Both the position numbers and the translations under genes were made by a program. Below are positions 56,545-60,934 of a DNA stretch of 64,000 nucleotides, one piece after another. Source of the stretch: Nitrososphaerota archaeon (GTDB lineage: Archaea > Thermoproteota > Nitrososphaeria > Nitrososphaerales > Nitrosopumilaceae); assembly GCA_021325615.1 (NCBI GenBank), contig JAJPGU010000010.1, forward strand, positions 1-64,000, given 5' to 3'. The first letter of the stretch is position 1. Each line of letters begins with the position of its first letter. Under the pieces are notes generated by a model, which had not been told where the DNA came from, did not search any database, and worked only from the letters and a program-made list of their open reading frames with translations.

Positions 56545-56604
56545 TTTTCAACAGGACTATCGATGAACATAAATCAAGTCCGGACCATACGACCGTGGCG
56601 TTTG

Positions 56605-57198
56605 ATGTTTACGGGGATTATCGGTGGTCTTGGAAGGGTGGAAAAATTTGAGAAAAACACCAACACAAGGAGCGAAGCGAGAATGAGGGTATCGTTTGGC
56701 AAGATTGCGCGCGGCCTCAAGGTGGGGGACAGTGTTGCAATTAATGGCGTCTGTCTCACAGCAGTGAGCGTGGCAGGCGGGGCTGCAGAATTTGAGATGG
56801 TAGGCGAGACAATTACCAGGACAAACCTTGGATCGCTTGGGCCCGGAGACATGGTGAACATAGAGCGCAGCCTGAGGGCTGGTGACAGGCTTGAGGGGCA
56901 TTTTGTCTTGGGCCACGTGGACGGGTCCGGCACAATTTCAAAGATAGAAAAGCAGCGCAACCAGGTAAAGATCTGGATCAGCCTGCCCAAGAACCTTGCA
57001 AGGTATGTCGCGACCAAGGGATCCATTACGGTCGACGGCATAAGCCTGACAGTTGTCGACAAGAAAGCGAGCATTTTTTCAGTATCGATAATCCCGCACA
57101 CAATGAAGGTCACAAATCTTGGAAAGAAAAAAGCGGGTGACAAAGTTAATATTGAAACCGACGTCCTTGCCAAGTACGTCCTTTCTGAAAAGAGTTAG
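56605..57198 (+). CDS. ribE: riboflavin synthase, bacterial-type alpha subunit
   Basis: It dismutates two 6,7-dimethyl-8-ribityllumazines to riboflavin. From ATG 56605 the protein has 197 residues with the N-terminal MFTGIIGGLG hallmark and two tandem lumazine-binding repeats, each with SVAINGVCLTA- or SITVDGISLTV-like strands (about 45 and 143). Many archaea instead use an unrelated synthase, so this is a bacterial-type enzyme in an otherwise archaeal-type pathway. It begins the riboflavin cluster. Confidence 0.93.
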   Translation: MFTGIIGGLGRVEKFEKNTNTRSEARMRVSFGKIARGLKVGDSVAINGVCLTAVSVAGGAAEFEMVGETITRTNLGSLGPGDMVNIERSLRAGDRLEGHFVLGHVDGSGTISKIEKQRNQVKIWISLPKNLARYVATKGSITVDGISLTVVDKKASIFSVSIIPHTMKVTNLGKKKAGDKVNIETDVLAKYVLSEKS

Positions 57199-57267: not shown

Positions 57268-57948
57268 ATGTCCTTGGAAGAAGCCCTCAACTCGCTGAGA
57301 AGGGGGGAGTTTGTCCTTTTGCACGACGGGGACTCGAGGGAGAACGAGGTGGACATGGTGGTCGCGGCCGACTTTATCACGCCCGAACACATCGCAAGGA
57401 TGAGGCGTGATGCAGGAGGCCTCATCTGCCTTTCGGTAGACCACGCGTTTGCAAAGGAAATAGGACTGCGGTACATGCACGACATCCTTTCGTCATCACA
57501 GGGCATTGACGCCGGATCCAAGGAAATGATTATCGGCAAGGCCCCATACGGGGACAGGCCGTCCTTTTCAATATCAATTAACCACAAAAATACCTACACA
57601 GGTGTCACCGACAGGGACAGGGCACTTACCATGTCGGAGATGGCAACCATCTACAAGAGCCCATTGGCAGACAAGAAGGGCTCCTTCAATTCCAGTTTCA
57701 GGACTCCGGGACACGTGCCGGTCCTCATAGCTTCCGAGGGCCTCCTGGCAAGCAGGCTGGGACACACCGAGATGTCGGTCTACCTTGCAACACTGGCGGG
57801 ACTTTCGCCCATCACAGTAATCTGCGAGATGCTTGATGCCGAGACATATGGCGCGCTCTCGGCAGAAAAGGCAAAACAGTACGCAAGCAGGAACGCCATC
57901 CCGTATTTTGACGGCAGCACTCTTGTAGAATACGCAAAGGGGCATTGA
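57268..57948 (+). CDS. ribB: 3,4-dihydroxy-2-butanone-4-phosphate synthase
   Basis: RibB turns ribulose 5-phosphate into the four-carbon donor used by lumazine synthase. The 226-residue protein has the acidic metal-binding loop LLHDGDSRENEVDMVVAA (about 17-34), the VDHAFA segment, and the TGVTDRDRALT loop, then GHVPVLIASEGLL with the catalytic His region and HTEMSVYLATLAGL. It is not fused to a GTP cyclohydrolase II. Confidence 0.95.
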   Translation: MSLEEALNSLRRGEFVLLHDGDSRENEVDMVVAADFITPEHIARMRRDAGGLICLSVDHAFAKEIGLRYMHDILSSSQGIDAGSKEMIIGKAPYGDRPSFSISINHKNTYTGVTDRDRALTMSEMATIYKSPLADKKGSFNSSFRTPGHVPVLIASEGLLASRLGHTEMSVYLATLAGLSPITVICEMLDAETYGALSAEKAKQYASRNAIPYFDGSTLVEYAKGH

Positions 57949-58361
57949 ACTTGAACATAGCAATCGTAGTGTCAGAATTCAACGGTGAGGTAACCTCCAA
58001 GATGCTGGAGGTTGCGGTGGAAAAAGCACGGTCGCTTAAGATGGGCGTCTTCCGCACCTGCAAGGTGCCTGGAGTGTTTGACATGCCAATTGTCATCGAC
58101 TCGCTCCTTAGGAGGAAGGAGGTAGACGCGGTGGTGACACTTGGGGCCGTCATAAGGGGGGAGACAAAGCATGACGAGCTTATCGCGGGAGTCGCGGCAA
58201 AGGCCATGACGGAGCTAGCCCTCAAGTACCAAAAGCCCGTATCGCTTGGGATTACGGGTCCGGGCATGAGCGAGAGGCAGGCTCACCAGAGGATAAGGCC
58301 GGTTGCGGAAAGGGCGGTAGAGGCTGCCCAGAAACTTCATGATGAACTGCGGAAGATCTAA
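57945..58361 (+). CDS. ribH: 6,7-dimethyl-8-ribityllumazine synthase
   Basis: The enzyme condenses the RibB product with the ribityl-diaminopyrimidine. The 138-residue protein has NIAIVVSEFNGEVTSKML, the VPGVFDMPIVI strand-loop, VVTLGAVIRGETKHDELIAG with the catalytic His, and PVSLGITGPGMSERQAHQR. The TTG start overlaps the ribB stop by 4 nt; a second TTG at 57951 is possible. Confidence 0.94.
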   Translation: MNLNIAIVVSEFNGEVTSKMLEVAVEKARSLKMGVFRTCKVPGVFDMPIVIDSLLRRKEVDAVVTLGAVIRGETKHDELIAGVAAKAMTELALKYQKPVSLGITGPGMSERQAHQRIRPVAERAVEAAQKLHDELRKI

Positions 58362-58363
58362 AG

Positions 58364-59116
58364 ATGATCCAGCTAACATTGATAAAAATAACGGGATATG
58401 GGCCGTGGACCCTGACTCTGGGAAGCGACAGGGAACACCGGCTGCAGATGCTCCAGGCATCGCTTTACCGCGAGATCCAAAACCTTTTTTCCGAGAAGGG
58501 ATGCCTTGCTTTTCCCAACAGGTTTGACGAGATTTTTGTGATAACAAACGGCCTCTCGGTACCGGACCATGTCAAGATTCAGGAGGGCCTGGCAAGGGCC
58601 TTTGACCTTGGGTTTTCGATGACAATAGGGAGGGGAGAGACGCCCTTTGAGGCTAACCTAGACGCAGACGCTGCAAGGAGGGAGAAGGCGTTTCTGGACG
58701 AAAAGCACAACATACTTGGCCGCCAGCCCAAGGAGGAGGCGGAGCGGGTGCAGATAATCCACATGGACGTGGACGGCTCCACCTCCATTTCCGGAAAAAA
58801 ATCGCCCTATGAAGTGTCGTCCCTCATTGTAAGGCTTTATGCATCCATGTCCGAGTATTTCCTGGCAAGGGGCTCGCTTGCCTTCTTCATGGGGGGCGAC
58901 AACTTTATGGTAGTAAGCTCCGGGGTCGCAAGGGACGAGATTGAGAAGTTTCTTGCCCATGTGCGGGAGCAGTATGGCATCTCGTTCAACTGCGGGATAG
59001 GGAACGCCAGCACGGGACGTGCCGCGGCAATGATGGCCACCCAGTCGCTTGACAAGATAAGGGAGCTCCGCGATTCCGGAAAGGGGACGGAGCGGATTCT
59101 GGAATCCACATGTTAA
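58364..59116 (+). CDS. arfA: GTP cyclohydrolase III (archaeal, ArfA)
   Basis: ArfA opens GTP to the formylaminopyrimidine FAPy, the first step in archaeal riboflavin/F420 synthesis. The formyl group is retained, so a separate deformylase is needed. The 250-residue protein has two GGDEF-like halves, with MTIGRGETPFEANLDAD, IIHMDVDGSTSISG (metal-binding Asp pair) and FFMGGDNFMV. It follows ribH by 2 nt and overlaps the amidohydrolase gene by 7 nt. Confidence 0.93.
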   Translation: MIQLTLIKITGYGPWTLTLGSDREHRLQMLQASLYREIQNLFSEKGCLAFPNRFDEIFVITNGLSVPDHVKIQEGLARAFDLGFSMTIGRGETPFEANLDADAARREKAFLDEKHNILGRQPKEEAERVQIIHMDVDGSTSISGKKSPYEVSSLIVRLYASMSEYFLARGSLAFFMGGDNFMVVSSGVARDEIEKFLAHVREQYGISFNCGIGNASTGRAAAMMATQSLDKIRELRDSGKGTERILESTC

Positions 59117-60300
59117 TACGGAATGCGACCCTCCTTCATGGGCGGGACCTTGATCTGCTGCCTTCTGCCGACGTGAGAATAAGCGGGAGGCTCATTGAAA
59201 AAATCGGGAAAGGCATTGCACCAAGAAGGGGGGAAAGGGTGATTGATTGCGAGGGGCTGCTGATGATGCCGGGACTTGTAAACTCGCATACCCACATAGG
59301 CGACTCGATAGGAAAAGACGTGGGTATAGACTCCGGCGTGGAGGAAAAGATCCATCCAGTAAGCGGCTTCAAGCAGCGAATCCTCAAGACCTCCCACCCG
59401 TCGCATCTCAAGCAATTTATCAGAAACTCGTGCGTTTCCATGGTAAAGAGGGGCATTACCACCTTCATCGACTTTAGGGAGGGGGGGCTTGCGGGGGTGG
59501 ATCTTCTAAAAAGTGCCGCCGCTGGGATTCCAATAAGGCCTGTCATAATGGGCAGGATAAACTACTATCAGGACATGGAACTTGTGCGGAAAAACTCCCC
59601 GCTGCCCAGGGAGAGACGGGCGGAACTTGGGGCCCTTGTGGCGCACTGCAGCGGGATTGGGATAAGCGGTCCGAACGAGTTCAGCGACTCGGTACTCGGG
59701 TATTTCGCAAGGCAGAAAACCCTCCGGGCTATACACTCGGCTGAAACCATAGAAGGCAACAATGCGTCAAAGAGGATGACAAAACGGTCTGAGACCAAGA
59801 GGGCACTGCTTTCAAGGCCCGACCTCCTGGTTCACATGACACATGCCTCAATGGAAGACCTGCTCTTGGCCTCAAGGAAGGGTGCGACCATCGCCGTCTG
59901 CCCGAGGGCAAACGGGGCCCTTGCCGAGGGCATACCCAATGTGGAATTAATGATGAGATCTGGATGCAATGTTACCATCGGGACCGACAATGTCATGGTA
60001 AACTCTCCCGACATGTTCAGGGAGATGGACTATATCTGGAAGGCCACAATGGGAATGAACAGGGAACGCCTCCCACCGAAATCCATCCTGAAGATGGCAA
60101 CGGTAAACGCCTCGCAGGTCCTCGGGGGAAAGATAGGCGTAATCCAAAAAAATTGCTTTGCAGACTGCATATTTGTGGAAAAGCACTCGATCGACCTTGA
60201 GCCGATGCACAATCCGCATGCTGCAATAGTTCACCGCGTCTCGGAAAATGCCATACGTGCGGTAATGTTTGAGGGGGAGTTTGCCCACGGCAAGATCTAG
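59110..60300 (+). CDS. amidohydrolase of the ATZ/TRZ deaminase-like type in the riboflavin operon
   Basis: The 396-residue metal-dependent hydrolase has the small beta domain (MLIRNATLLHGRD, then LIEKIGKG) and a TIM barrel. Expected ligands of the family are all visible: HTH in GLVNSHTHIGDSIG (about 57-70), His in RAIHSAET, His in VHMTHASMED and Asp in TIGTDNVMVNSPD (about 297). This resembles guanine/SAH deaminase-type members. It overlaps arfA by 7 nt and arfC by 20 nt. Position and chemistry suggest it supplies the missing FAPy deformylase (ArfB) or the still unidentified archaeal deaminase of the pathway. The exact step is inferred. Confidence 0.85.
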   Translation: MLIRNATLLHGRDLDLLPSADVRISGRLIEKIGKGIAPRRGERVIDCEGLLMMPGLVNSHTHIGDSIGKDVGIDSGVEEKIHPVSGFKQRILKTSHPSHLKQFIRNSCVSMVKRGITTFIDFREGGLAGVDLLKSAAAGIPIRPVIMGRINYYQDMELVRKNSPLPRERRAELGALVAHCSGIGISGPNEFSDSVLGYFARQKTLRAIHSAETIEGNNASKRMTKRSETKRALLSRPDLLVHMTHASMEDLLLASRKGATIAVCPRANGALAEGIPNVELMMRSGCNVTIGTDNVMVNSPDMFREMDYIWKATMGMNRERLPPKSILKMATVNASQVLGGKIGVIQKNCFADCIFVEKHSIDLEPMHNPHAAIVHRVSENAIRAVMFEGEFAHGKI

Positions 60301-60934
60301 GCCCTACGTGATACTAAGCGCGGCAATGAGCATAGACGGTAAGATTGCGACGCGCACCGGAGCTTCAAGGCTTTCCTCCAAGAGGGATCTTGCAAGGGTA
60401 CACAGGCTTCGAGGGTCGGCAGATGCAATCCTGGTTGGCAGAAATACCGTGGCCCAGGACGACCCGATGCTTACGGTAAGGCTTGCAAGGGGGAAAAACC
60501 CCACAAGGATAGTGCTGGATCCGAGGGCCGCGATGCCTCCAAGCTCAAGGATTGGAGCCACTGCAAATAGTATACCAACCATCGTGGCGGTGACGGAGAC
60601 TGCCCCCAAATCAAGGGCGGAAAGGCTTGCAAAAAGGGGCCTTGAGGTTATTGTGTGCGGCAGGTCCCGGATTGACCTCGGGAAACTGCTGTCCATACTT
60701 GCCCGGAAAGGAATAAGGAAGCTCGTGGTCGAGGGGGGAGGCACGACCAACTGGCACTTTCTGGCGGAGGACCTTGCCGATGAGATTCTTGTAACCATAG
60801 CTCCGTTTGTGGTGGGGGGAACAGATGCTGTTTCGCTTGTGGGTGGCCGCGGTTTTGGGAAAATCAGCCATTCATTCAAACTGAAGCAGGTCGAAAGATT
60901 GGGTAACGAGATTGTACTTAGGTACGTGCGCTAG
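60281..60934 (+). CDS. arfC: 2,5-diamino-6-ribosylamino-pyrimidinone 5'-phosphate reductase (ArfC/RIB7 type)
   Basis: The enzyme reduces the ribosyl side chain with NADPH before deamination, the archaeal and fungal order. From TTG 60281, preceded by a strong GAGGGGGAG ribosome site, the protein has 217 residues. RPYVILSAAMSIDGKIATRTG at the N-terminus, ADAILVGRNTVAQDDPMLTVR (about 48-68) and LVVEGGGTTNWHFL (about 151-164) match the RibD C-terminal reductase domain. The RibD-type deaminase domain is absent. The start lies inside the end of the amidohydrolase gene. Confidence 0.9.
   Translation: MPTARSRPYVILSAAMSIDGKIATRTGASRLSSKRDLARVHRLRGSADAILVGRNTVAQDDPMLTVRLARGKNPTRIVLDPRAAMPPSSRIGATANSIPTIVAVTETAPKSRAERLAKRGLEVIVCGRSRIDLGKLLSILARKGIRKLVVEGGGTTNWHFLAEDLADEILVTIAPFVVGGTDAVSLVGGRGFGKISHSFKLKQVERLGNEIVLRYVR

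Follow-up and report, generated by a model that had tools for sequence, protein, structure and literature searches.

An amidohydrolase encoded between arfA and arfC as a probable deaminase of riboflavin and F420 precursor synthesis in archaea

The gene at 59110-60300 of the window (the whole stretch analysed, 64,000 nucleotides from contig 16 of a 1.83-Mb archaeal draft genome, 96% complete) encodes an amidohydrolase, here called AHD, which is probably the deaminase of the ArfC product and not a deformylase (probability roughly 0.8). The assignment is based on co-occurrence with creatininase-family genes, the lack of a RibD deaminase domain, an HxxE active-site signature, and the superfamily precedent for isocytosine-type deamination.

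Operon layout and enzyme family

Six co-directional genes were found in the order ribE-ribB-ribH-arfA-AHD-arfC:

56605..57198, + strand: ribE, bacterial-type riboflavin synthase (NF006767, 232 bits, cut-off 155; the model begins at residue 15 and the ORF is open from 56563)
57268..57948, + strand: ribB, DHBP synthase (TIGR00506, 212 bits, cut-off 177)
57945..58361, + strand: ribH, lumazine synthase (TIGR00114, 133 bits, cut-off 84.6)
58364..59116, + strand: arfA, GTP cyclohydrolase III, yielding a formylamino-pyrimidine (PF05165, 4.3e-55)
59110..60300, + strand: AHD, amidohydrolase of 396 aa, PRK07213/NF005552 family, proposed 2,5-diamino-6-ribitylamino-4(3H)-pyrimidinone 5'-phosphate deaminase (NF005552, PF01979; AlphaFold2 model)
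60269..60934, + strand: arfC, archaeal diaminopyrimidine reductase (TIGR01508, 211 bits, cut-off 186; start at TTG 60269 or TTG 60281)

The original prediction had placed an amidohydrolase gene between arfA and arfC in a ribE-ribB-ribH operon, and both the gene and its setting proved real: the ORF starts with ATG, its first 7 nt lie inside the end of arfA exactly as predicted, and the RibE, RibB, and RibH models were all matched clearly. The predicted 20-nt overlap with arfC was obtained with the internal TTG at 60281, but the frame is open from the TTG at 60269, which gives 32 nt. The commonest AHD/arfC overlap in relatives was 14 nt, so with two TTG candidates here the true start of arfC is uncertain. 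The arfA-AHD junction overlapped by 4-31 nt in 54 of 57 loci (some of them from one genome). The riboflavin synthase (56563-57198) is of the bacterial type (Lum_binding) inside an archaeal operon; in Sulfolobales-like relatives a different gene, presumably of the archaeal RibC type, stands between ribB and ribH.

AHD was assigned to Amidohydro_1 (PF01979, 1e-37) and matched the NCBIfam equivalog NF005552/PRK07213, "chlorohydrolase", over its whole length (307.6 bits, cut-off 294). All other NCBIfam amidohydrolase models gave at most 114 bits, and those for SAH, 5'-deoxyadenosine, guanine, and 8-oxoguanine deaminases at most 87 bits (cut-offs 351-779). Neither the ArfB/creatininase models (PF02633, NF033501) nor the cytidine-deaminase-fold zinc domain of RibD and Rib2 were matched by the AHD protein in Pfam and NCBIfam searches.

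AHD was aligned with 40 relatives (41 sequences, 22-63% identity). Residues H60, H62, D65, E124, H209, E212, H242, C264, R266, N268, D293, and N294 were invariant, and K88, R149, and R376 were kept in 40 of the 41. The active-site features are as follows:

59287..59295, + strand: HxH metal motif (H60, H62), 41/41
59734..59745, + strand: HxxE motif, H209-S-A-E212, a deaminase-type signature with H209 as predicted metal ligand and E212 as predicted proton shuttle, 41/41; it aligns with the HxxE of TM0936 and other deaminases
59833..59835, + strand: H242, active-site His of the metal set, 41/41
59899..59913, + strand: C-P-R-x-N (C264, R266, N268) with a family-specific R; C, R, and N 41/41
59986..59991, + strand: D293, metal ligand, and N294 (GTDN versus GTDG), both 41/41

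The full metal set proposed originally (HxH, H, H, D) was thus recovered, and the protein belongs to the ATZ/TRZ-type amidohydrolase superfamily with its beta/alpha barrel. The HxxE motif, which in amidohydrolase-type aromatic deaminases carries a catalytic Glu after strand 5, is present as H209-S-A-E212. The C-P-R-x-N segment is a likely substrate contact.

The AlphaFold2 model (pLDDT 96) was closest to triazine hydrolases, SAH/MTA deaminases, the isocytosine deaminase Vcz, and guanine deaminases (17-21% identity, TM up to 0.86). Where the AHD family reads CPRxN and GTDN, the best-matching solved structures among those listed read CPxSN or NPASN and GTDG. The isocytosine/8-oxoguanine deaminase Vcz (7WW2, 8IS4) resembles the AHD model in fold (TM 0.83-0.85) and, according to PMC6186785, carries out the ring chemistry proposed for AHD, in which a 2-amino-4-oxopyrimidine loses its 2-amino group. 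The two proteins are 19% identical; the residue after the metal Asp is Gly in Vcz and Asn in the AHD family, and Vcz acts on a free base, whereas the proposed AHD substrate is a ribityl phosphate. In the SAH/MTA deaminase TM0936 (1P1M, 2PLM; TM 0.81, 20% identity), the metal site and HxxE align with those of AHD, but the flanking motifs are NPASN and GTDG.

Association with the pathway and place of the step

Strong AHD matches, ArfA, and ArfC were present together in the same 26 of 41 genomes of the class, and none of the three was detected in the other 15. A strong AHD match was obtained in 82/82 genomes of the same family and 97/99 of the order. Among the 151 genomes of the phylum scanned, ArfC was also present in every genome with a family-sized AHD (48/48), and the only AHD-model matches without ArfC were four low-scoring frames of 432-457 aa, which are evidently paralogues. 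The association of AHD with arfA and arfC is far beyond chance; the Fisher p-values for it are illustrative, as they take no account of relatedness among the genomes. ArfC without AHD (at E<=1e-30) was found in 26 genomes of the phylum set, so AHD does not serve as the deaminase in all archaea. These genomes include one family with creatininase-arfA-arfC-ribB operons, where either another deaminase is used or AHD is too divergent to be detected.

AHD was also found in 13 of 14 genomes of a small archaeal phylum (including a MAG titled "Euryarchaeota archaeon"), but away from these pathway genes. One single-contig genome (G116, 99% complete; L087) lacked ArfA, AHD, ArfC, and RibH and kept CofH and a creatininase, a pattern due to recent loss or an assembly defect. 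One AHD-family gene (L083) came from a contig assigned to Candidatus Shapirobacteria, probably through mis-binning of archaeal DNA or gene transfer.

In the synteny check suggested with the original prediction, almost all of the class had the order arfA-AHD-arfC, which was conserved in part in the rest of the phylum: Sulfolobales-like genomes (named from gene content) had ribB-x-ribH-arfA-AHD, and others arfC-AHD or AHD-arfC. Among the class loci read, the contact of AHD with arfC was clearly broken at one only (L070, G056), where about 1.1 kb separates the two genes. In G027 (contig 9, L065), a second, diverged arfA adjoined a second ribB outside the main operon.

In three genomes (G008, which is complete, G016, and G028), ArfA, AHD, and ArfC were present and RibH absent; G012 had AHD and ArfC without RibH, with ArfA detected only in part. 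The genes ran arfA-AHD-arfC-creatininase-cofG-cofH in G008 (L052) and cofG-cofH-arfA-AHD-arfC in G028 (L053) and G016 (L054), suggesting that these three organisms are riboflavin auxotrophs still making the precursor for F420. AHD was also near cofG/cofH in G201, G134, G012, loci L041 and L042, and two named Bathyarchaeota contigs (L079, L080). Since 5-amino-6-ribitylaminouracil is both the FO synthase substrate and the riboflavin precursor (PMC8498797), these RibH-less operons place AHD before this compound. That part of the pathway comprises GTP opening (ArfA), deformylation, reduction (ArfC), deamination, and dephosphorylation, and for an enzyme of amidohydrolase type only deformylation or deamination fits. 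The claim that AHD performs one of these two hydrolytic steps is thus supported by co-occurrence, operon order, and the F420-only operons.

Deformylation or deamination

ArfB belongs to the creatininase family. A replacement of ArfB by AHD as a non-homologous deformylase of the ArfA product, with the deaminase encoded elsewhere, is unlikely. AHD lies directly 3' of arfA, and gene order had originally been taken to favour deformylation, but 80 of the 82 same-family genomes carried a creatininase-family gene along with AHD, the two genes share one operon in G008, and in other archaea a creatininase lies beside arfA. M. jannaschii, from which archaeal ArfB was characterised (Grochowski 2009, as cited in PMC9478397), was used as a control genome and matched both the AHD and the creatininase models. 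The HxxE site and the nearest structures point to aromatic deaminases and not formamidases, and with AHD as the deformylase the deamination step would be left without any candidate.

Deformylation by AHD has points in its favour. No creatininase was found in this draft, as predicted, nor in G102, G012, G016, and G028, all of which bear AHD, so a deformylase role is conceivable in those five genomes; in G102 the contig starts just past the expected place of the creatininase. The creatininases here scored 57 bits to the NCBIfam ArfB model (cut-off 180), and across the order the gene stands outside the rib operon, as in the congener G033, where it adjoins purU. In congeners, rpiA, purU, and the creatininase flank ttuA; all three were absent from the contiguous ttuA region here (contig 16, ~145,000-147,000; L085), and a search of the remaining assembly gave no rpiA and only a distant purU-like match. 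The missing purU-creatininase-rpiA block reflects a gap, a move, or a loss. A single-protein scan of genome contigs yielded only 6 loci. In the creatininase tree, the copies of this order grouped together (fork 91/96) and the G008 operon copy formed a long branch, so the tree is no proof of ArfB function. In another Thermoproteota family, a creatininase adjoins arfA and AHD is not detectable, which could be read as mutual replacement of the two proteins. At five loci (L103-L107; G126, G133, G153, G163, G193), a creatininase stood beside an arfA-arfC-ribB operon with AHD absent from the flanks; the deaminase that these archaea would require seems to be of a kind other than RibD or a recognisable AHD.

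The predicted absence of a RibD deaminase domain held throughout the draft genome, where TIGR00326 matched only the reductase part (138-341). The domain was likewise not found in the 41 class genomes, save one weak partial match in G054. ArfC here has no N-terminal deaminase domain. The pair named as refuting the original prediction was an ArfB homologue together with a separate deaminase; an ArfB candidate is present in relatives, and a separate deaminase was not found. Deamination, suggested by the ATZ/TRZ appearance of the protein, was the better of the two options offered.

Deamination of the deformylated ArfA product by AHD ahead of ArfC, the bacterial order, is very improbable. The gene order arfA-AHD-arfC agrees with it and does not decide, but the archaeal reductase is reported to work first and the deaminase second, which is also the fungal order (Graupner 2002, cited in PMC13028884 and PMC8305020), and ArfC passes the archaeal reductase model; the role of AHD would be unchanged and the order alone would differ. 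It is hardly credible that AHD is a deaminase of general salvage or housekeeping (SAH, 5'-deoxyadenosine, guanine) that stands in the operon by chance: AHD is of the same superfamily branch and scores weakly to those models, but far below their cut-offs, and it is present or absent jointly with ArfA and ArfC and kept in F420-only operons.

With AHD as the deaminase, ArfA would open GTP, a creatininase-type enzyme would take off the formyl group, and ArfC would reduce the ribose to a ribityl chain. AHD would act next, on 2,5-diamino-6-ribitylamino-4(3H)-pyrimidinone 5'-phosphate, which has a 2-amino-pyrimidin-4-one (isocytosine) ring; hydrolysis at the C2 amino group of this ring would release ammonia and leave 5-amino-6-ribitylaminouracil 5'-phosphate. 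From this, a phosphatase would yield 5-amino-6-ribitylaminouracil for RibH (riboflavin) or CofG/CofH (F420). By analogy with the superfamily, members of which deaminate isocytosine (PMC6186785), a metal held by H60, H62, H209, and D293, with H242, would activate water, and E212 would shuttle protons. The family-specific K88, E124, R149, R266, N268, N294, and R376 may bind the pyrimidine and the ribityl phosphate.

Earlier assignments and implications

That the archaeal deaminase is unassigned, as stated originally, was too strong. In Table 6 of PMC8305020, which cites Rodionova et al. 2017 (NAR 45:3785), HVO_1235 is the arfB candidate, and HVO_2483 (34% to MJ0699, "also predicted for MJ0699") stands after arfC and before the gap for the phosphatase; from its position, this row would be the deaminase step. 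MJ0699 and HVO_2483 are, like AHD, candidates for the gap in the archaeal riboflavin pathway. The M. jannaschii and H. volcanii genomes matched NF005552 at E<=1e-30 (a match at genome level), and AHD may be orthologous to these two proteins. AHD is not the first candidate of its kind and probably belongs to a family predicted earlier. What is added here is the argument from the F420-only operons, a clean genetic one. The available part of a 2026 review (PMC13028884) regards the later steps as conserved between archaea and bacteria and does not name the archaeal deaminase. An experimental test of this deaminase was not found in the literature search, and biochemistry seems to be absent.

The reaction type proposed for AHD is that of the RibD deaminase domain and fungal Rib2, the latter acting after reduction, but these have the cytidine-deaminase fold and are unrelated to AHD. 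ArfB and BrbF, a formamidase of the creatininase family (PMC9478397), serve the same pathway segment and differ from AHD in fold and family. "Chlorohydrolase" is a sequence-based label, whereas the gene context of AHD points to a biosynthetic deaminase.

The odds are about even for a broader reading, in which the PRK07213 amidohydrolase is the deaminase of the 5-amino-6-ribitylaminouracil pathway across much of the Archaea, also in those that do not make riboflavin and whose arfA-AHD-arfC(-creatininase)-cofG-cofH operon serves F420 only, and a second deaminase serves the AHD-less Thermoproteota family with creatininase-arfA-arfC-ribB. The F420-only operons offer ready-made test loci. If AHD is the deaminase of the ArfC product, one enzyme family would close the deaminase gap for this class, Sulfolobales-like archaea, Bathyarchaeota, and probably methanogens, the misleading "chlorohydrolase" label would be corrected, and archaea would have solved the deamination with an amidohydrolase and not with the RibD/Rib2 fold.
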